A DNA stretch of 22,844 nt, from the IMG/VR virus record IMGVR_UViG_3300042889_000940, positions 1 to 22,844 of that record; one strand, given 5' to 3'. This document shows, piece after piece, positions 85 through 19,788 of this stretch (positions within the stretch are counted from its first letter, which is position 1; each line of letters starts with the position of its first letter). A model generated the notes under the pieces. That model ran no database searches. It saw only the letters and a program-made list of their open reading frames with translations, and had not been told where the DNA came from. The DNA comes from a virus. Both the position numbers and the translations under genes were made by a program.

Positions 85-483
85 TTATTTTGTTAAATCT
101 ATCACATCAAATACTCTAGTGTATATTTTTTTTACACCTTCGGTATTTGTTACTAATATACAATTTCTATATTTTTCCCAATCTACTTCAAATTTATTAT
201 CTAATTGTCCACCGGTTGCTTCCATAATAACATTGTTTAATGCATTGATTGTGTATAATGTATTACTTTGTTTTTTTCTATGAACCAAAATAGTTTTCAT
301 TTCTAAGTTTGGTTGTGTATTTTCTACTACTACATTGTAAGTTATAAACAATTCATTTGGAATATTTTTGTTTTGAAGAACATAGATGTAGTTATAAGCC
401 AATGTATAATTGCTTTTAATTAATTCTAAGTGATTCTCTACATCTGTTTTTGTACTAAATGTACAAAGTAATTGTGTCTTCAT
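85..483 (-). CDS. Hypothetical protein, 132 aa
   Basis: I do not recognise this protein. It is small and mixed alpha/beta, begins MKTQLLCTFSTKTDVENHLE, has no signal peptide or membrane segment, and contains a single Cys near each end. The N-terminal strand followed by an amphipathic helix could be a ferredoxin-like fold, but that is only a guess from the pattern. It lies 18 nt downstream of the 771-residue gene and 6 nt upstream of the P-loop kinase, so it is probably co-transcribed with both. No Shine-Dalgarno sequence precedes the ATG. The start is supported by the compact spacing and the absence of an alternative upstream Met. Confidence 0.75.
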   Translation of the reverse strand: MKTQLLCTFSTKTDVENHLELIKSNYTLAYNYIYVLQNKNIPNELFITYNVVVENTQPNLEMKTILVHRKKQSNTLYTINALNNVIMEATGGQLDNKFEVDWEKYRNCILVTNTEGVKKIYTRVFDVIDLTK

Positions 484-501
484 TATTGGGGGATTACTCT
501 C

Positions 502-2817
502 TTATTTTTGTATTGGTTCAATGTGAGATGAATTTGCATTGTTTAGTGCTAAATATTTACATTCTTTGCCAGTTGCTGCAATACCTGGATCATAACTCCA
601 ACCCATTCCACTAACAGTATTTACACCATCAATTGTTTCGTGTTGAATTCCTTTCTTTGTATATTTAGTTCTTAGGTTACCAAATAATTGATAATCTATA
701 TCTGCATTATTAAGTGCTTCTGCTATTGCTCCCATCTTACACCACATACCACATTGTTGTTTGTATGTTTCATAATTTTTCTTTTGTTCTGGTAGGGTTT
801 TACCAAAACATGCGGCGTGTTTTTTAAATGGAACTTTGGATTCTATTTTTTTAGCCATCATCCCCGTTTGTCTCTCACCTTCTGCCATTGCTTCTTTTGC
901 AGTATTTTTATCTATTACACCATTTGCTACCGCTCTTTTTATAACATCGTTTAATTCTTTTTGTTTATTATTAACTTCTGCTGCTGATTTTACTCTTTTT
1001 TCTTTTGAACCAGGGGTGAATGCCCATTCGTATGTAGCGAACATTTTTGTTATTTCTTTTTTAGTATCAAATGCACTTCCCTGATGTTTATAAGAAGTCA
1101 TTGCTACTTTATCCATACCTGCACTAGCTCCTCCCTTTTCAAACTTAACACTTAATCCACCTTCTATTAATACATCAGATTTGAATGCTTGTAAATTCTT
1201 TGCAATTTCAGCTGATGGTTTTTGTCCTGCTTTTATTAAAAATGAAGGAGTTGGTTTATATGTTACAATATCAGTAACTTTCCAATTGGATGCCGCTGGC
1301 ATAAACCCAGCATATCCGTGTCCTAATTTAGTCATAAAATCAAATATTTCTTGCATATCAGGTACCCCCACTCTAAAATCAGGAGTATTTACCATAGAAG
1401 TTGCAATATCATCTATTTGTTTAGTATATTGTTCTACTTCACCTCTATTAGATTGATTTGGTGCTTTTAATACGCTCAACTTATCCATCACTACTTTTTG
1501 TTGTGGTGTGAATTTCTTTGCACCATTGTATTTGTATAACAATGCAGTTAGACGAGTATTCATCATTTGTTGCATATTATTCAAAACAGTAGTTCTACCT
1601 TCAGGTGTTGATGTATCACCACCAAAATCAATACTTTCAATCTTACCTTGCGCTGCAATAAAGTCAACCATTGCATTATGTCTTTTAATTGCAGAAACAA
1701 TTAATTCTGATTCCTTTTGATACTCTGGAATATTTTTGGCTTTTAATTCTTTGGCTAAATCTTGTGGTTTTGGAACTGATACCTTTTTTAATACGGTTTT
1801 TCCAATAGTAACTGCTGTTATTTTACCGCCTTCTTTTGTTATCTTAGCTTCTACATTATATCGTTTATCTGATAATTTGGATGCTACCATTGTCTTTTTT
1901 CCAACAGGTTGTCCTTTATCAAAAATTTCATTTGTTTCTGCATAACTATATAATGCTTGCTTAGTATTATCATCCATTGCCGGCAGCATTATTTTTGCTC
2001 TTACGTTAGATGCAAAACTACCTCTCTGTGATGTTATGTATAATTTATTTTCAGATGCAGCAGGTATTGTTATATATTCACTTGTTATTTTCTTTTCCTC
2101 TGCATTTAAATCTTCCCCAGTCATTATTTTCGCAACCGCTACTTTTAACTTTTGTTTTTCGGTTTTATCTGCATCCGGAATCTTATCAACAATTTTATTA
2201 ATTTCTGTTATTTTTTGAAGTTGCTTATCTTTTGGAAAAAATGCATCATCTTCTTGTTTCTTTGCTGTTGATAATGGCTTAGAACCCACAGGTTTAGTTA
2301 ATGTTGGTTGTGGTTTTGCTGCCGGCTTTGGTTGTGGTTTAACAACTGGCTTAGTTGTTGGGGCTATAACTGGCTTAGTTGTTGGTTTTGGTTGGGGTGC
2401 AACTGCCGTTTTTCCACTATCACCACGTTTTCTAGGTTGTGGTAATTTAATTAATTTACCATCTTTATTAATATGTGTAATTAAATCGTTTCCTGCTGGA
2501 CCGTATGATATACCACCCTTACCAATTAATCCTAATTTATGTGCCTGGTCAGCTGCTGAATTTTTATCTAGTTTAGATTTAGGAACCGCTCCCATTCGTT
2601 TAGTTGATGCTTCTAATGAAAATTTCTTAGGTGCTAAACTAATAGCTTCCATTAATTCAATATCGGTTAATGTTGCTGCACCAAATTGTTCTAATACTGA
2701 ACGTAAGTGTTCTAATTGTTCTTTGTTATCGAAATTTGGAATTGGATATGTAACACAGAACTCTCTTAATACATCATCTATAATTTCACTAAGGTTTTCT
2801 AAATTAAAGTTCATCAT
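502..2817 (-). CDS. Large multidomain protein, possible PD-(D/E)xK-like nuclease core, 771 aa
   Basis: There is no confident family match. The parts in order are: an acidic helical N-terminus (1-60); a basic, Gly-rich stretch (70-135); a Pro/Lys/Thr-rich linker (about 140-185) built on repeated TTKPV/PQPKP units; a long helical, charged middle (190-480); a block at about 485-570; and a Cys-containing C-terminus (C670, C689, C693, C753). The 485-570 block has W512-x-x-x-D516-I and then, after a predicted helical stretch, GGLSVK (K558) within a Gly-rich loop. That W..xDI ... (G)xSxK arrangement recalls some phage and restriction PD-(D/E)xK-type nucleases, but I could not test it. The gene starts 14 nt inside the end of the polymerase gene, so the two are probably translationally coupled. 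The start has tandem ATGs (2817 and 2814). It could equally be a virion-associated structural protein. Confidence 0.6.
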   Translation of the reverse strand: MMNFNLENLSEIIDDVLREFCVTYPIPNFDNKEQLEHLRSVLEQFGAATLTDIELMEAISLAPKKFSLEASTKRMGAVPKSKLDKNSAADQAHKLGLIGKGGISYGPAGNDLITHINKDGKLIKLPQPRKRGDSGKTAVAPQPKPTTKPVIAPTTKPVVKPQPKPAAKPQPTLTKPVGSKPLSTAKKQEDDAFFPKDKQLQKITEINKIVDKIPDADKTEKQKLKVAVAKIMTGEDLNAEEKKITSEYITIPAASENKLYITSQRGSFASNVRAKIMLPAMDDNTKQALYSYAETNEIFDKGQPVGKKTMVASKLSDKRYNVEAKITKEGGKITAVTIGKTVLKKVSVPKPQDLAKELKAKNIPEYQKESELIVSAIKRHNAMVDFIAAQGKIESIDFGGDTSTPEGRTTVLNNMQQMMNTRLTALLYKYNGAKKFTPQQKVVMDKLSVLKAPNQSNRGEVEQYTKQIDDIATSMVNTPDFRVGVPDMQEIFDFMTKLGHGYAGFMPAASNWKVTDIVTYKPTPSFLIKAGQKPSAEIAKNLQAFKSDVLIEGGLSVKFEKGGASAGMDKVAMTSYKHQGSAFDTKKEITKMFATYEWAFTPGSKEKRVKSAAEVNNKQKELNDVIKRAVANGVIDKNTAKEAMAEGERQTGMMAKKIESKVPFKKHAACFGKTLPEQKKNYETYKQQCGMWCKMGAIAEALNNADIDYQLFGNLRTKYTKKGIQHETIDGVNTVSGMGWSYDPGIAATGKECKYLALNNANSSHIEPIQK
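2344..2385. repeat. Two 18-bp direct repeats, 24-bp period, coding the Pro/Lys/Thr linker
   Basis: The 18-bp string beginning AACTGGCTTAG and ending TTGTTGG occurs at 2344-2361 and again, identically, at 2368-2385. The 24-bp period equals eight codons and encodes successive TTKPV-containing units in the linker of the 771-residue protein. This looks like recent in-frame tandem duplication within a flexible linker. Confidence 0.85.
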
Positions 2818-4150
2818 AATTTTTACCGATTGTTGTTTTTACTTTGTACCTACCATGCCCACCTTTTAATATAGGTATGATATCAGTATATAAATATTGT
2901 TTTTCTTGAGGATACACATCAAATACAAATGCATCGTATGTATATAATATCAATTTTGTACGTTTTCCTTCTAATTTCTCTTTAATTTTTAATATTTTCT
3001 TTATATTTCTTTCAGTTTCGTATGCCTGGATATAATAATTAAGAACTTTGGCAGGAGTTATAGGTTCTAATCTTTCAATACCAAACTGAATATGGTACAA
3101 ATGTGTAAATATTGCTTTGTTTTTTATTATTGTTTCCGATAATAAACCTGTAAGATGTTGTATTTCTTTAAAATATGGAATATGCAATAACTCACTTCTA
3201 ATCCCACCATATAAATTTTGGAATATTAAAGTTTTTACTTCATTTCTATCATCAATACCCATTTGATTTCCAATCCATGTGTAAAAATCTAAATCACTAC
3301 CATAGAAATCTTTAATCCATTGCATTTCTTTTACATCTACTTTTGAATTAAGTTTGGTTTGATAAATAATATCCATCAATAATCTTGGGTGATATGCTTC
3401 AAAATCTATACTCACCAATTCACCATCATCAAATCTACTTACAAATGCCTTTCTCTCACAGGTATCTTTTTTAAGTGCAGCGTAGTTTACACCCCCATAG
3501 CGGTTCGATGGTCGGAGTGTTGATGTCATTAGGTTGTATTGAGTGTAAACATAGTTATCCTTCGTTAAATGAACTGGATTGTAGTTTAAAACGTAATCCC
3601 CATCTACCTTTAATCCACTACTTTCAATATAACCAAATGCCGTTGTTACATCATCTACATATTTTATTGAATTTTTATCTATATTAATTGAAAACTTAGA
3701 AACATATTGTTTTATGAGTTCTAATTGTTTAACCATTGGGATACTATCATTCAAATATGGTTCACTTTTAAACTTTGATTTGTAAAATTGATTTAATTGA
3801 TTGTTATCCAATTCAATGCCATGATAACCATATTCAATAAATCTTGCTAAATCTGCATCATATCCTTTGGTAAAATTTAATATTTGTGAAATTGCTTTAT
3901 AATTAAAAATTAACTGAGGATGTTGTGTATTTAATAATTGTTGTAATGCTTCTACTTTAATTCCTAACCCATCTCCATTGTTTACATTTATAACCCATTC
4001 ATCTTTTTTTGATTTTACATAAATAAAAGATATACGATTGTTCATCACATGCTTTTCTTCATCTGATAATCTAACGTATATTAAATTAGTATGTTTTCTA
4101 TATTCTAATAGGAAGTTTTCAAATTCAAATTTATTTTCTACAAATGTCAT
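2804..4150 (-). CDS. Divergent family A (Pol I-like) DNA polymerase, 448 aa
   Basis: The polymerase core is visible from about residue 200. A T-x-x-LRPS block (209-215) matches the TGRLSS region. CERKAFVSR leads into motif A at SID249FEAYHPR. Motif B is R302-xxx-K306-xxx-F310-xxx-YG (314-315), with exactly the O-helix spacing of Pol I. Motif C is YTYD406AF. Both metal-binding Asp positions (249 and 406) and the O-helix Arg/Lys/Phe/Tyr are kept. Unusual changes: the motif A Glu (E710 of Pol I) aligns with His254, and motif C HDE reads YDA. The N-terminal 120 residues resemble the outline of a 3'-5' exonuclease domain, but its acidic catalytic residues appear lost. There is no 5' nuclease. At 448 residues it is shorter than a Klenow fragment (about 605). 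It follows a terminator, has its own host-type promoter and overlaps the 771-residue gene by 14 nt, so the pair may act together. Confidence 0.82.
   Translation of the reverse strand: MTFVENKFEFENFLLEYRKHTNLIYVRLSDEEKHVMNNRISFIYVKSKKDEWVINVNNGDGLGIKVEALQQLLNTQHPQLIFNYKAISQILNFTKGYDADLARFIEYGYHGIELDNNQLNQFYKSKFKSEPYLNDSIPMVKQLELIKQYVSKFSINIDKNSIKYVDDVTTAFGYIESSGLKVDGDYVLNYNPVHLTKDNYVYTQYNLMTSTLRPSNRYGGVNYAALKKDTCERKAFVSRFDDGELVSIDFEAYHPRLLMDIIYQTKLNSKVDVKEMQWIKDFYGSDLDFYTWIGNQMGIDDRNEVKTLIFQNLYGGIRSELLHIPYFKEIQHLTGLLSETIIKNKAIFTHLYHIQFGIERLEPITPAKVLNYYIQAYETERNIKKILKIKEKLEGKRTKLILYTYDAFVFDVYPQEKQYLYTDIIPILKGGHGRYKVKTTIGKNYDEL
2888..2896 (-). promoter_or_regulatory. Possible internal late-promoter motif (ATATTTATA)
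   Basis: This is an exact copy, in the transcribed direction, of the motif found before the tail genes. It lies inside the 3' part of the polymerase gene, about 70 nt upstream of the 771-residue gene start. It also encodes part of a YLYT stretch, so it may be chance. Confidence 0.3.
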
Positions 4151-4221: not shown

Positions 4222-5004
4222 CTATTCACTCCAATGTTTGATTCGTAATTCTTTCATATCGATTGGCTCTCTTTTCATATGGCCACCTTTTGAAAAATTC
4301 GAACCTCTTTTTAAGTAACCACCTAATAGGTTTCTTCTCATTCTATTAGATGTATTTGTTTCAGAACCATGAACATTATGTGAATGTAATAACACCACTT
4401 GTCCTTTTTTTAATATTCCTTCTAACTTTCGGAAATCATGTCCTTCTGGCATAACACACGGTTTACCTCTTTCATTACTCCAAAATGCCGGGTTTGTTTT
4501 TGTTCTTTCATCATCAACTTCTATTGGTAAAATTGGTAATCTATGTGTACCTTCGTATACCCAGACTGAACCATTACCTGCATCGTGGTTATCTAATGCT
4601 AATGCGGTATTGATAATTTCATTGTGACCACATTTTGTATAAAATGCGTTTTGATGTTGATCTCTACCTAATTGTCCTGGTGGTTTGAAATAACACCAAT
4701 CTTGCATTCCATCAATTTCACCACCCATTAAATATTCAACTGCTTCCAAAATTTTTGGATGTGCAAAATATTTTTCTAATAATGGTGAAAGTTTATGTGG
4801 ATATGCAAATGGATCCCACTCTCCCCAAATTTTACCATCAGGTGCGGTTGTTCCTGTTCTTTCATTTCTCAAACGGTCTAACTCATTGTTAATTACATCA
4901 CACTCTTCTTCGGTAAGTAATTCTAATGTTGTAAATCCTTTGTATCGCCAATCAAACGTAATTTGTTGGACTTCTTCTTCGCTAAGATGTTTTAACTTTG
5001 CCAT
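4222..5004 (-). CDS. Phytanoyl-CoA dioxygenase (PhyH) family 2-oxoglutarate/Fe(II)-type oxygenase, 260 aa
   Basis: This matches the PhyH-type double-stranded beta-helix oxygenases, which couple 2-oxoglutarate decarboxylation to hydroxylation of a substrate. Visible landmarks are the N-terminal helical cap (LTEEECDVINNELDRLR), the proximal metal loop GRDQH117-Q-N119-AFY, the strand segment GNGSVWVYEGTHRLPILP, and the distal His in LLHSHNVH212GSETN, followed by NR221 for the 2-oxoglutarate carboxylate. The usual H-x-D ligand motif reads H-Q-N here, so one iron ligand is changed unless another residue (for example D115) substitutes. The substrate cannot be predicted; modification of a small metabolite or of virion or surface sugars is possible. 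It lies between baseplate and polymerase genes, follows a late-type motif at 5022-5030, and ends in a terminator, so it looks like a single-gene late unit. No Shine-Dalgarno sequence. Confidence 0.85.
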   Translation of the reverse strand: MAKLKHLSEEEVQQITFDWRYKGFTTLELLTEEECDVINNELDRLRNERTGTTAPDGKIWGEWDPFAYPHKLSPLLEKYFAHPKILEAVEYLMGGEIDGMQDWCYFKPPGQLGRDQHQNAFYTKCGHNEIINTALALDNHDAGNGSVWVYEGTHRLPILPIEVDDERTKTNPAFWSNERGKPCVMPEGHDFRKLEGILKKGQVVLLHSHNVHGSETNTSNRMRRNLLGGYLKRGSNFSKGGHMKREPIDMKELRIKHWSE

Positions 5005-5438: not shown

Positions 5439-7555
5439 TATTCTCCGGCTCCTCTTTTAACCCTAAATCTTAATTCAACATCTATTTCCCATTTAGTATC
5501 ATCTACTCTGTGTGTAATATCCGTTATTTGCCAATACCCTTTATCTGCTGTCATCCAAGGTATTTCATATATTTTAACACTTTTACCAATTACAAACCCA
5601 CCTACTCCTAATGTTGTAAATGTTAATTTAGTTGGTAATAATACATCAGTTTTTTGTTCTTCATCATCTCCAAAATATAAATTTTTTACAATACCGGCAT
5701 CTTTTACTACTACAAAATAAGCACTTTCATTGCCACTATAATAAGGTGCTGCATTTAATTTAACTCTAAGTTCTCCTGGGGCGTTAAGCATTGATGCTAC
5801 GGCATTTTTTGCTATATCGTATACGAATGCCACACTATCTACTGCTGCCCCAACTGTTGCTTTTGCACCATCTATTATCGCGCCGGCACCTGCTTTGGTT
5901 TTATCCCATCCTATTTTTACAGCATCACCTAATGTTAATTTGGTTTCAATCGGTGGTGTTATTGTACCACTATTATCCGATGATGCTTTAGCCGCATCTG
6001 ACTTATATTTTGCTTGCACTATCGCAACTGCACCGACTACTGCATCTGGTTCTGTTGTTCTAAACAAAAAATCTCCAACTGGATGTGTAGATGATTGTAC
6101 TTTTTCTTTCTTAGCTTCTCCACCCAGTACCGCTTGCGCTGCTACTTCCTTTGGCATGTCGGCATTTATATCTATATTTGTAATAGTAGATTTTTCACTA
6201 AATAAATTTAAGGTTGGAATTGCATCATTTTCATTCGATAAATTGTAATCAACAATTGTATAATTCATCCATCCTTTTGAATTTTCAATATCTCGTAATG
6301 CCAAATTCCATAATCCTGCTCCCGCTACATTTAATTCTGTAATAATTTTTTCCAAAAATTCTTTGTTACTATCCATTCCTCTGGCTGCTTCTTTCAAAAA
6401 ATCTGCAGATATTAATAAATGTTTTAAATGTCCATGTTGATTTGCTTTCAATGTTACCGCCCCATCATATAATGTAGTATCAGTTGGTGTTGGAAATTGT
6501 ATTGGTTCTGCCAAATTAATCGGACCGAATGTTATTGGATTTGCGGTATCTAGCCTTACTGTTTTTACCGTAGTTTCACCAAATTTCACTGGAACTGAAT
6601 CATCTGTTTTTGGTATTAATGCAGATGGTATAATTACATTTTCCGATGCACTTATCATTTGCGGTCTACCACATGCTACTGCATCATTAATTTGTACATC
6701 CATTGGCATTCCGCCATTCATTGTAGTATCCTTTCCTTTGTTACATACCGTCTTTATAACATAACCAAGTTGAAGATATGCTGAATCTGTATTTCCGTAT
6801 GTCCAATCTATAATATCCGTATCAATGTTTATTGTATATCCTTTTAAAGCTTTGTAAATTGCTTCATTACCTGACGCCGGATCTATTTTTGCAGCTTGTG
6901 CTGCCATAATAGTTGCTTTCGCTTTTTTATCATCCGAACTATCTACTACCGATGTATTGGTACTACTTAATGCTAAGAATGCAGGAATATCAGATGGTGA
7001 TGATAATTCTATTTTAACATCTACCGTAAGATTTTCATTTATTTTAATATCGAAATTAGTTAATATTCCAGTAAAAATATCAAAATCATTTCCGGTTACA
7101 AATTCATTATGTTTTAATATGTTTACACCTTTAACTGCGGTTTTCATACCGGATTCTACATTTACTTGTTTTCCATTTCTACCTTTTGCCCATCCCCACA
7201 CTAATGATTGTGTTTTACCAATAAACATAAATCCATTATTTGCAGCCATATCATCCATATCTGAAAACTGAATAGTAACTGATGCCATTTTTATTGCACC
7301 CATATTACCAGTTGTTTTTACCTCAATTGATTTTAACATTGGAGGTATTTTTTTAACAAGATTATTTACATTATGTGAAATATTAAATTTTTGATATGAA
7401 CTATTACCGATTATACCACCTGGGACATTCCTACTACCCATAAAACATTCTAAAAATGCAAATGCTTTAGTACCCGAAAAGTTTGTTTTATTGGTATTAG
7501 TAATTGCGTTAATAATTTCTTTTTCTAATCCTGTTACAAATGGAAACCTACTCAT
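5438..7555 (-). CDS. Baseplate hub-like protein (gp27 / gpD-type), 705 aa
   Basis: This is a large beta-rich structural protein. The first 250 residues look like a tube-derived domain: MLKSIEVKTTGNMGAIKMASVTIQF, then GFMFIGKTQSLVWGWAKG, then IFTGILTNFDIKINENLTVDVKIEL. This alternation of a strand, a 'W-GW' loop and a 'TG-x-x-T-x-F' turn is common in gp27/gpD-type hub proteins. The C-terminus (about 600-705) has a second such domain ending KGYWQITDITHRVDD then WEIDVELRFRV, which fits the 'x-Y-x-V-x-x-x-x-H-x-x-x' ending of hub proteins. An amphipathic Ala/Gly helix lies at about 545-595. It is joined by 1-nt overlaps to the LysM/gp53-like gene upstream and the 121-residue gene downstream. Hub assignment is from fold pattern and position, not from a strong sequence match. 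Confidence 0.65.
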   Translation of the reverse strand: MSRFPFVTGLEKEIINAITNTNKTNFSGTKAFAFLECFMGSRNVPGGIIGNSSYQKFNISHNVNNLVKKIPPMLKSIEVKTTGNMGAIKMASVTIQFSDMDDMAANNGFMFIGKTQSLVWGWAKGRNGKQVNVESGMKTAVKGVNILKHNEFVTGNDFDIFTGILTNFDIKINENLTVDVKIELSSPSDIPAFLALSSTNTSVVDSSDDKKAKATIMAAQAAKIDPASGNEAIYKALKGYTINIDTDIIDWTYGNTDSAYLQLGYVIKTVCNKGKDTTMNGGMPMDVQINDAVACGRPQMISASENVIIPSALIPKTDDSVPVKFGETTVKTVRLDTANPITFGPINLAEPIQFPTPTDTTLYDGAVTLKANQHGHLKHLLISADFLKEAARGMDSNKEFLEKIITELNVAGAGLWNLALRDIENSKGWMNYTIVDYNLSNENDAIPTLNLFSEKSTITNIDINADMPKEVAAQAVLGGEAKKEKVQSSTHPVGDFLFRTTEPDAVVGAVAIVQAKYKSDAAKASSDNSGTITPPIETKLTLGDAVKIGWDKTKAGAGAIIDGAKATVGAAVDSVAFVYDIAKNAVASMLNAPGELRVKLNAAPYYSGNESAYFVVVKDAGIVKNLYFGDDEEQKTDVLLPTKLTFTTLGVGGFVIGKSVKIYEIPWMTADKGYWQITDITHRVDDTKWEIDVELRFRVKRGAGE

Positions 7556-7848
7556 TATTTCATTGAATTTTTAAGTTGTGCTGCTTCTTGTGTACTAGGT
7601 ATTCTAAGTTTAATACCACCTTGCATTGTTAAATCAATATCAGTTAGATTATTTTTCAATGCAATAACCCACCACATTGTACTATCACCGTAATATTCGT
7701 TTGCCAATAAATCTAATCTATCACCCATCGTAGTTAATATAACAATGTCAGTATCGGTTGGTTCTACATATGATAACAATGTAGAATCATATACTTTACC
7801 TTTGCCTGTTTTCAATATTGTTTTTATGTTTGAATATCTATTATCCAT
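7555..7848 (-). CDS. LysM-like baseplate wedge protein (gp53 / tail protein X type), 97 aa
   Basis: A single LysM-like module spans about residues 35-84: IVILTTMGDRLDLLANEYYG, then D-x-TMWWVIALKNNL, then GGIKLRIPS. The order 'GD-x-x-x-x-x-A-x-x-Y-Y-G-x-x-x-x-W-W' followed by a closing 'I-P' strand is shared by P2 tail protein X and the T4 gp53 wedge family, which connect the hub to the wedges. The length suits the short members of the family. It begins 2 nt after the 746-residue gene and overlaps the hub-like gene by 1 nt (TAATG), so all three are one operon. Assignment as a baseplate LysM protein is firm; equivalence to gp53 itself is an inference. Confidence 0.78.
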   Translation of the reverse strand: MDNRYSNIKTILKTGKGKVYDSTLLSYVEPTDTDIVILTTMGDRLDLLANEYYGDSTMWWVIALKNNLTDIDLTMQGGIKLRIPSTQEAAQLKNSMK

Positions 7849-13228: not shown

Positions 13229-13261
13229 AAAGTTAGGAGTTTTTTATCTTCTCCTAACTTT
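13229..13261 (-). terminator. Rho-independent terminator after the tail chaperone
   Basis: A perfect 11-bp stem, AAAGTTAGGAG / CTCCTAACTTT, closes an 11-nt loop. On the minus strand it runs into TTGTTTTATA. The upstream arm encodes the last codons of the chaperone extension, whose stop is at 13246-13244 in the loop. Confidence 0.82.
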
Positions 13262-13489
13262 ACTATTTGCTTTTTGTATTTGTTCGTTTTCTTTCTTTTT
13301 TATATCAACTAACATATTTGCATACATTCGTCTGATATGAAGTGGTAAATTGTATACATCACCAAATGTAAATCCGCCACCACCTTGAAATACCAAGAAA
13401 AATAATTCTTCGTATAATCCTTTTTTATAATCCGCTGGCAGGGTAAAAAAAGTTGATTCCAAAAGGAATATCAAGTGCCTCCGATTCAC
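13244..13489 (-). CDS. Tail assembly chaperone C-terminal extension, expressed by +1/-2 frameshift
   Basis: This frame overlaps the end of the 277-residue gene by 65 nt in the +1 frame. It would begin at a GTG (13489) with no ribosome-binding site, and its first 13 codons are an out-of-frame reading of the upstream gene. The protein-like part starts at the T7 run: FFTLPADYKKGLYEELFFLV, then FTFGDVYNLPLHIRRMYANML, then a charged helix. That pattern, an N-terminal helix, 'F-x-x-x-D-V-Y-N-x-P' and 'R-R-x-Y-x-x-x-L', is the one seen in the T domain of tail chaperones and in small T4-type gp26/gp51-neighbour proteins. Ribosomes slipping at 13445-13451 would make a fusion of about 337-338 residues, adding 66 from this frame. 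The G/GT pair normally lies directly before the tape measure gene, as here. Independent translation from GTG or a TTG cannot be excluded. Confidence 0.75.
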   Translation of the reverse strand: MNRRHLIFLLESTFFTLPADYKKGLYEELFFLVFQGGGGFTFGDVYNLPLHIRRMYANMLVDIKKKENEQIQKANSKVRRR

Positions 13490-14258
13490 CCGTCACATCC
13501 GATATGAACTCGAATTTCATATTTAAATCCGGAGATATACTTTTTACATATGCTCTAAATGCTTGAATATCTTTTGCTAAGAATTGATTGCTTACCCAAT
13601 TGTTTACATAACCTCTATCGGAATTATCATTTACAGAAAGTATCATATATTTTAAACGAGTAGTTACTTCACTACTTCCACCTTTACCTTTTGTTAATCT
13701 TGCTAATGCATTGATTTCATTGGTAATATCTTTTTCATCTTTGTGAGTTAATAACTTAAATATGATTTTAGTTTGAGATGGTAATAGAAATGCATATCTG
13801 TTTTCAGTATTTAATAAAGAATAATCAATATCTTTAGTTTGAATCTTTGTTAAATCAATTGATACTTTTTGTCTTTCACTACTAAAAGGGTCTGTAATTT
13901 CTACATCATATTCAGGACCATATCCTAATACTCTTGCTGCTAAGTAAACAGCGTTCTTATCACCTGTAACCAAATCATCTGCATTAACACCAACTTGAAC
14001 TACAACTGATTCTAATAGTTTATCTAATACCACACCTTTATTAATTAGGTTGCTATCTGCTAAAATATCTTCTTCTCTTGCAGTAAGGTATTTGATTTCT
14101 AATGTACCTTTACTAAGTGGATTGCTTTCCGCATATACCTTACCTTCTGATGGTAATGATATAACTTGTGTTGGAAAATTAAAGGTTGATGTTGTTTGTT
14201 GAGGTTGTTGTGTTTGAACAGGTGTTCCACCTCTTTGGATGTTTATGTTTTCTTCCAT
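13425..14258 (-). CDS. Tail assembly chaperone / T4-type baseplate-assembly protein (PF12322-like), 277 aa
   Basis: After a Gln/Thr-rich N-terminal tail (1-28), the body begins with VISLPSEGKVYAESNPLSKG then TLEIKYLTAREEDILADSNL, which fits the 'LPS-x-G-x-x-Y ... L-x-x-G-x-x-x-V/I-x-x-L-T-A-x-E-E' start of T4-type gp26-like baseplate assembly proteins (the T4_baseplate family). It continues as an alpha/beta protein with a conserved-looking helical LTHKDEKDITNEINALARL segment. Its location between the tube and tape measure genes indicates the G-type tail chaperone, which binds the tape measure while the tube polymerises. The final codons run into a T7 slippery tract in a 65-nt overlap with a second frame. 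It follows a motif resembling the late promoter (14280-14288) and has no Shine-Dalgarno sequence. Confidence 0.78.
   Translation of the reverse strand: MEENINIQRGGTPVQTQQPQQTTSTFNFPTQVISLPSEGKVYAESNPLSKGTLEIKYLTAREEDILADSNLINKGVVLDKLLESVVVQVGVNADDLVTGDKNAVYLAARVLGYGPEYDVEITDPFSSERQKVSIDLTKIQTKDIDYSLLNTENRYAFLLPSQTKIIFKLLTHKDEKDITNEINALARLTKGKGGSSEVTTRLKYMILSVNDNSDRGYVNNWVSNQFLAKDIQAFRAYVKSISPDLNMKFEFISDVTGESEALDIPFGINFFYPASGL
13445..13451 (-). promoter_or_regulatory. T7 slippery tract for +1 or -2 frameshifting
   Basis: On the minus strand the zero frame reads AAC TTT TTT TAC, seven codons before its TAA. Slipping +1 (or -2) on TTT re-pairs perfectly with TTT and enters the frame of the downstream extension. 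RNA polymerase slippage on the T run would have the same effect. Confidence 0.7.
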
Positions 14259-18144: not shown

Positions 18145-19788
18145 TTATAATCCGTATCTACCTTTTAAATTGTTCCAAACATATCCTATTTCAGTTGCAG
18201 TTAACGCTCTTTGATAGAAAAAGAATGAACCTAAATTACCAGTATTATTTTGCATTAAATAAATATCAGCTACCGCATTTGTATTAGCTGCAGTTGATAC
18301 ACCATTTGAAACTAACGAACCATTATTATAAAATATTGTTTGAGCATTTCCAGATGTAACTGCCAACATATGCCAACCTGTTAATGTAGTTGGTGTTGAT
18401 GATTGGTTACCATGTGGTGTTGAATTTAAAGTCATTGTAGTTCCAGTTGCTGAGAAGGTCCAATCTGTACTTCTACTTAAAATGTTACCTGCACTATTTT
18501 GTACAAACGCAATAATAGTAAATCCGGTGTTTAAAGATGTATTGAAATTTGTATAGCCTGTACCACTTGCATTTGCTATTTGTTTAATACCATATTTACC
18601 ACTTGCAAATGTTAATGATTTTGGAGATGTTGCATTAAATGAAGGTGCTGCAATTGCTGGACTTGCATTTCCACCGGTTAAGTTAAAACCGGTTGAATAT
18701 CCTGCTACATCATTAAAATTAGTACCACTACCAGCATAAGATGCTGCAAATTGAGGTTCTAAATAACATACTAAATTTGTCCATGGAATTGGTGCAGTTG
18801 CTGCTCCTTTATTATGTGAAACAAATCCATTAGCTAAATAAGTATGTGCAGAATCTACTGTGATTGTTGCAATTTCTAATGTTTTATTGAAGAATTCTAT
18901 TTTCTCTACTAATACATCTTCGATTAATCCGGTTGTTGTGTTATATTTTACTAATTTGTCACCTTCTACAATATCCTCTGCTCTTGTAAATTGATATGTT
19001 TCGGTAATATCATCCCAAGCAAAGAACGGATGTGCACCTGTTACTTTTATTGATCCAAAATTAATATCAACATAATTATCAATAAATGAATAATATACAT
19101 TGCTAACTATTGCATCTACAATTTCACCATTAGAACCCGTTTCATTATACCACCAATACCACTCTGCTGGATCATTTTCAGGAAACCATTCTGGCATTCC
19201 CGTTGGTACAAATGTTTTAATTGTATCACCTATGTATAAATCACCTGCTTTTACAGTTGAACCATCTGCTAATAAAATATCAGTATCGGTACTTACACAT
19301 AAAACATCTGAATTAATTGAGTTATATGAATCTACTGAATAAATTGTTTTAGTTGATGCTACATTGTAATTCGTTGCGGTTGTATTATATCCGTCTGCAT
19401 ATGTTGCTGTTAATGTTGTTGCATTACTACCACTATACGTTGCTCCTGCCAATGAATTTGCAGTAATTGCAACCGATGCTCCTTTTGTACCAACACTAAA
19501 ATAAGTTGCATCACTTACTGTTACCGTATAATTTGCGGCCACCCCTTTGATTCTATTATCAAACGCAACACCCTGTGTACTAAACGCAAAAGTTACATTT
19601 TCTGCAGTAGCTTCTACTATATACGTAAATGGTTGTGTTATTGCCACACTATCAAACGCGAATGAACTCATAGATACGGCGGTGCCGGCTGATGCATTCA
19701 TTGCATTTAAAGAAACTGCTTGTGAAGTTCGTGCAGTACCTTGGGTTGCTCTATATAAATTACCTAAACTTAAACTTGTCTTTGCCAT
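18145..19788 (-). CDS. Virion surface-type protein with internal Hint (intein-like) domain and C-terminal LamG-like domain, 547 aa
   Basis: Three parts are visible. Residues 1-160 are a Ser/Thr/Ala-rich beta region with repeated strands. Residues 164-326 are a Hint domain: C164 starts it (VLC164VSTDTDILLADGSTV), T250-G-A-H253 is the TxxH block B motif, and VDSAHTYLANGFVSH325N326 is the C-terminal block. Residues 335-547 look like a LamG/concanavalin-type beta sandwich (CYLEPQFAASY, TGFTIIAFVQNS, GWHMLAVTSGNAQTIFYNNG, FFYQRALTATEI). The residue after N326 is Lys, not Cys/Ser/Thr, so ordinary protein splicing is not expected. Cleavage at either end, as in bacterial intein-like (BIL) domains, is more likely and would release the LamG-like part (about 221 residues). 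With no homing endonuclease (163 residues), it is not a selfish intein of the usual kind. It has a Shine-Dalgarno-like AAGGAA and a late motif, and lies after the glycosyltransferase. Confidence 0.82.
   Translation of the reverse strand: MAKTSLSLGNLYRATQGTARTSQAVSLNAMNASAGTAVSMSSFAFDSVAITQPFTYIVEATAENVTFAFSTQGVAFDNRIKGVAANYTVTVSDATYFSVGTKGASVAITANSLAGATYSGSNATTLTATYADGYNTTATNYNVASTKTIYSVDSYNSINSDVLCVSTDTDILLADGSTVKAGDLYIGDTIKTFVPTGMPEWFPENDPAEWYWWYNETGSNGEIVDAIVSNVYYSFIDNYVDINFGSIKVTGAHPFFAWDDITETYQFTRAEDIVEGDKLVKYNTTTGLIEDVLVEKIEFFNKTLEIATITVDSAHTYLANGFVSHNKGAATAPIPWTNLVCYLEPQFAASYAGSGTNFNDVAGYSTGFNLTGGNASPAIAAPSFNATSPKSLTFASGKYGIKQIANASGTGYTNFNTSLNTGFTIIAFVQNSAGNILSRSTDWTFSATGTTMTLNSTPHGNQSSTPTTLTGWHMLAVTSGNAQTIFYNNGSLVSNGVSTAANTNAVADIYLMQNNTGNLGSFFFYQRALTATEIGYVWNNLKGRYGL

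Follow-up and report, generated by a model that had tools for sequence, protein, structure and literature searches.

A small divPolA1-type DNA polymerase with a conserved, altered active site beside the replication genes of T4-like phages

The polymerase gene and its neighbourhood

The stretch of DNA analysed here, referred to as the window, is a viral fragment of 22.8 kb (22,844 nucleotides; IMG/VR record IMGVR_UViG_3300042889_000940). On its minus strand, an open reading frame with an ATG start encodes a family A polymerase of 448 aa (Table 1). This frame and the motif residues quoted for it in a first-pass annotation are all in place. The position of the gene is between the tail module and a gp32-UvsX-5'-exonuclease-gp41 cluster, as established by a census of 158 relatives in which counts were taken from loci with enough flank (75 upstream; 66 with more than 6 kb downstream). 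Two neighbours are constant: a gene for a gp53-like baseplate wedge protein upstream and one for a 132-aa protein downstream. The latter matches no Pfam or PHROGs family above chance, and its homologue immediately follows the polymerase gene in Microcystis phage Mel-JY01 and Flavobacterium phage immuto. Further downstream on the same strand are genes for a gp32-type SSB (64/66 loci), UvsX (62/66), a Pol I-type 5'-exonuclease (55/66; 5_3_exonuc_N match, E 1e-29), and the gp41 helicase (45/66). The T4-like context proposed at first pass is supported. A 771-aa protein, whose gene overlaps the polymerase stop by 14 bp in the window, has no family in Pfam or PHROGs and is encoded in only part of the family.

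Table 1. Positions of the polymerase, its motifs and domains, and neighbouring genes in the window
Feature	Position	Strand	Basis or remark
divPolA1-type small family A DNA polymerase, 448 aa	2804..4150	-	ORF, fold, profile match, homology to immuto gp001
Vestigial 3'-5' exonuclease-like domain, residues 1-130	3761..4150	-	AF2 secondary structure, superposition; limit approximate
Reduced thumb region, residues 131-200	3551..3760	-	Length vs Klenow, AF2 model; limits approximate
Motif TxTxRPS, residues 209-215	3506..3526	-	R213 = Pol I R668, 80/80
Motif A DFEAYH, residues 249-254	3389..3406	-	D249 = D705, 80/80; H254 at E710, 80/80
Motif B, residues 302-315	3206..3247	-	K306, F310, Y314, G315 invariant; R302 not conserved
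KxxNYxxQxxETExN motif, K368-N382	3005..3049	-	N371/Q375 = Pol I N845/Q849
Motif C YD[AS]F, residues 405-408	2927..2938	-	D406 = D882, 80/80
132-aa protein	85..483	-	Conserved downstream neighbour, same strand, 66/66 loci
771-aa protein	502..2817	-	29/66 loci; present in part of family only
gp53-like baseplate wedge protein	7555..7848	-	phrog_7145, E 1e-14; constant upstream neighbour, 75/75 loci

Three other features of the window were recorded in passing. A phytanoyl-CoA dioxygenase-like gene (4222-5004, minus strand; PhyH, E 1e-18) has tail genes on one side and the polymerase on the other, and it occupies the same place in 26 of 75 relatives. In the tail region, a 547-aa structural-type protein (18145-19788, minus strand) contains a Hint/intein-like domain, ending in ..VSHNKG, that is possibly self-splicing or self-cleaving; it matches PT-HINT (E 4e-5) and Intein_splicing (E 1e-3), best over residues 244-328. 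At 13244-14258, also on the minus strand, a gp26-like baseplate ORF (277 aa, PF12322) overlaps an 81-aa ORF in another frame; the overlap holds a run of seven T (AACTTTTTTTACC), a programmed frameshift between the two is possible, and Mel-JY01 has a similar overlapping pair.

Family membership, fold, and active site

Why might such a gene be overlooked? The 448-aa sequence by itself matches nothing in Pfam, PHROGs, or PDB sequences, and profiles were required to detect its kinship. PF00476 is matched individually by 9 of 20 relatives (best 1.4e-10), the alignment built from these 20 finds Klenow among the PDB entries (E 7.6e-6), and the alignment of 80 non-redundant relatives matches a canonical Pol I/T7 polymerase profile of five sequences in hhalign (98.6%, E 1.1e-15). 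We detected at least 583 relatives in IMG/VR. A scan of genome contigs with the single sequence found nothing, while the profile retrieved five MAG contigs, of which three bear the labels Winogradskyella, Flavobacteriales, and Flavobacteriaceae; all five are probably binned phage DNA.

The AlphaFold2 model (pLDDT 85.8, pTM 0.88) has the palm and fingers of Pol I. Superposition with VIA-align places residues 1..448 on 301..875 of the Bst Pol I large fragment (Z 25.8, rmsd 3.6 Å, 409 residues), and the best Foldseek matches are apicoplast and bacterial Pol I structures, headed by the apicoplast DNA polymerase apPol (E 8.9e-18). The family A fold postulated at first pass is thereby upheld by both structure and profile, and the lack of a palm/fingers fold, which would have told against it, is not what the model gives. 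Full-size apPol differs in having an exonuclease domain and is only about 15% identical to the window polymerase. The closer yardstick, the Pol I large fragment of Bacillus or E. coli (PF00476), shares the fold and the positions of motifs 1, A, B, and C, but it is about 580-605 aa long and has a fuller thumb.

Homology places the window polymerase in a family already published. Yutin et al. (2024, Virol J 21:200; PMC11348598) named divPolA1 and reported it in 14 phages, including Flavobacterium phage vB_FspM_immuto; we found no mention of it in the later literature searched. That paper describes a polymerase additional to a regular one of family A, B, or C, with an intact palm, a truncated thumb, and an inactivated exonuclease, and with replication genes around it that vary less than the surroundings of the regular polymerase. 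Immuto gp001 is homologous to the window polymerase (tblastn E 4e-24, 88% query coverage). Both have an intact palm, a truncated thumb, and probably an inactive exonuclease-like domain, and immuto gp001 is likewise additional to a regular polymerase and has replication genes downstream. At 27% identity, however, the window member represents a diverged branch, and unlike most relatives it has Arg at the R754 position. The same paper describes divPolA2 of barbaviruses, likewise a second divergent PolA in PolB-bearing phages and likewise without exonuclease; by that description it differs in having an unrelated N-terminal domain and a variable gene neighbourhood. To the published picture we add at least 583 relatives, the ever-present 132-aa gene, the linkage of PolB to the clamp loader, and an invariant His/Tyr/Ala-Ser signature that the sections of PMC11348598 drawn on here do not contain.

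This signature emerges from column counts over the 80 non-redundant relatives at aligned positions, which were used instead of motif regex counts because the latter gave a few odd motif C strings from elsewhere in the protein. Residues R213, D249, H254, K306, F310, Y314, G315, Q375, E378, Y405, D406, and F408 are invariant in 80/80. In the window member, motif TxTxRPS reads TSTLRPS and motif C reads YDAF. Profile-profile alignment pairs D249 with D705, H254 with E710, R302 with R754, K306 with K758, F310 with F762, Y314 with Y766, G315 with G767, N371 with N845, Q375 with Q849, and Y405-D406-A407 with H881-D882-E883. It confirms two substitutions that the first-pass annotation had read from the sequence, His254 at the E710 position and YDA for HDE: Tyr stands at H881, and Ala or Ser at E883 (position 407), in all 80. 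E710, R754, and H881 are each invariant in the five canonical sequences, whereas the family has His, a variable residue (mostly Tyr), and Tyr. The annotation had also called motif B perfect. This holds for its invariant Lys, Phe, Tyr, and Gly, but the R302 of the window member is a chance match, the column containing Tyr in 51/80 and Arg in only 7/80.

Free variation of D249 and D406 among homologues, which would have told against the first-pass reading, is not seen, and the profile alignment called for at first pass finds K306 and Y314 equally fixed. Together with the Z score of 25.8, the 80/80 invariance of D249, H254, K306, F310, Y314, G315, Y405, and D406 is far beyond chance. Among close relatives, omega is ~0.13-0.22 in the polymerase part and ~0.12-0.38 in the exonuclease-like part, values that indicate purifying selection on both. 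The deviations are invariant and under such selection, so that the His in place of E710 and the Tyr in place of H881 are signatures of the family and not decay. Judged by its sequence, the enzyme is a divergent subfamily of family A outside the canonical Pol I-like subgroup. With its catalytic core strictly conserved, it is probably active; catalysis could be weak or altered, because most members lack the R754 contact to the dNTP phosphates and other residues stand at H881 and E883.

The N-terminus superposes on the exonuclease-like domain of Bst Pol I, which is itself already inactive. Over the first 140 residues, column counts show no conserved acidic triad, with only E5, E51, D60, and D98 mostly acidic. 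The first-pass statement that the exonuclease region had lost its acids therefore stands in kind, the triad being absent and the exonuclease-like region probably inactive; the replaced residues are not placed by a significant sequence alignment, the comparison with exonuclease domains for motifs I-III falling short of significance. Klenow has about 150 residues between its exonuclease domain and motif 1 and is 605 aa long in total; the window polymerase has about 80, counted from approximate domain limits, in 448 aa. Residues 131-200 are not alignable by profile, and the model indicates a truncated thumb. In the published structural alignment, all three exonuclease Asp of divPolA1 are replaced (PMC11348598).

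Replicase and primase in relatives

Which polymerase replicates these genomes? The window is a fragment without the replicase region, and the evidence comes from relatives that cover it. An 88%-identical relative lies on a 126-kb contig that encodes a gp43-like PolB of 841 aa near homologues of the gp44 and gp62 clamp-loader proteins. Seven other contigs (G002, G003, G004, G005, G013, G016, and G019) also have a PolB gene, with the clamp loader checked for G002 and G016, and the gene recurs in Mel-JY01 and the 484-kb record LR756508. In the last, PolB appears divided between two open frames with several kb between them (260623-266900, loci L140 and L141), as an intron or intein or a split gene would give. 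In immuto we found no PolB and instead a canonical PolA of 777 aa. The linkage of PolB to clamp-loader genes favours PolB as the replicase of the relatives that have it.

Three long contigs (G015, G017, and G018) gave no PolB match. They were considered as phages possessing the small polymerase alone, an idea that was rejected: these contigs stop just past the gp41 helicase, and PolB begins beyond the helicase in relatives, so the missing gene likely reflects contig ends. All three complete genomes and three long contigs encode a DnaG-type primase, and replacement of the primase by the small polymerase was rejected for that reason. The search for a separate replicative polymerase urged by the first-pass annotation thus yielded a PolB or a full PolA in relatives covering the region, and its suggestion of an extra enzyme holds. 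With a replicase encoded by relatives as well, and a primase too in the complete genomes, the small polymerase is a supernumerary enzyme.

Possible roles of a second polymerase

What would such an enzyme do? With a little better than even confidence, and on the strength of sequence and model, we take it to be an active, non-proofreading, low-processivity divPolA1 polymerase, additional to the replicase and expressed with the replication/recombination cluster. It would add short stretches to DNA 3' ends with no proofreading, working distributively beside the replicase, and might fill gaps that the neighbouring 5'-exonuclease leaves at Okazaki fragments or recombination intermediates; the two genes together would be a phage counterpart of the repair function of Pol I, divided. 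Lesion bypass is an alternative short-patch task, and sequence alone does not separate it from gap filling. Such an accessory role is supported by co-occurrence with genes for the replicase, primase, SSB, UvsX, 5'-exonuclease, and helicase, and the published analysis reached the same structural conclusions independently (PMC11348598). The gene also starts the replication cluster, however, which would suit a replicative function too.

That the small enzyme is the main or a second replicative polymerase, leaving some other task to the regular one, seems rather unlikely to us, although Yutin et al. suggest a part in replication and its SSB, UvsX, 5'-exonuclease, and gp41 helicase neighbourhood varies less than the surroundings of the regular polymerase (PMC11348598). 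An enzyme with no proofreading triad and a reduced thumb is ill-suited to copying a genome of 155-190 kb, in relatives PolB is a complete gp43-like protein encoded near clamp-loader genes, and the replicase alternates between families while the small polymerase stays. Because it is retained through these exchanges of A for B, it must have a task that the replicase does not perform. A further reading seems unlikely to us: that the rebuilt active site, with its invariant His at the steric gate, serves a function foreign to canonical family A polymerases, for instance tolerance of ribonucleotides or modified nucleotides or templates, with the 132-aa protein as partner.

Exchange of the steric-gate Glu for an invariant His and a motif C ending in Ala/Ser might point to a PolA-derived RNA polymerase or primase that makes RNA or mixed primers or transcripts, and Yutin et al. 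consider that divPolA2 might act as an RNA polymerase (PMC11348598). This is quite improbable: DNA polymerases are the best structural matches, and the complete genomes already have their DnaG-type primase. Kinship with T7 RNA polymerase was rejected, the family profile giving no match (hhalign probability 0.6%). Nor should an opened gate be assumed, as the E710 site holds a bulky His and not a small residue. Very improbable is a polymerase turned into a non-catalytic DNA-binding or structural protein, an option left open at first pass. Several motif positions do differ from canonical PolA, and the exonuclease-like part is probably dead, judging by our column counts and by PMC11348598; the two catalytic Asp, like the Lys, Phe, Tyr, and Gly of motif B, nonetheless never change in the 80 sequences, and the low omega of the polymerase part tells against a mere DNA-binding protein.

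Its many relatives show that the gene is a common one among aquatic phages. The His/Tyr/Ala-Ser signature offers a sharp handle on the ways in which a family A active site may be rebuilt. Large T4-like phages retain this second polymerase, free of proofreading, whether their main replicase belongs to family A or to family B.
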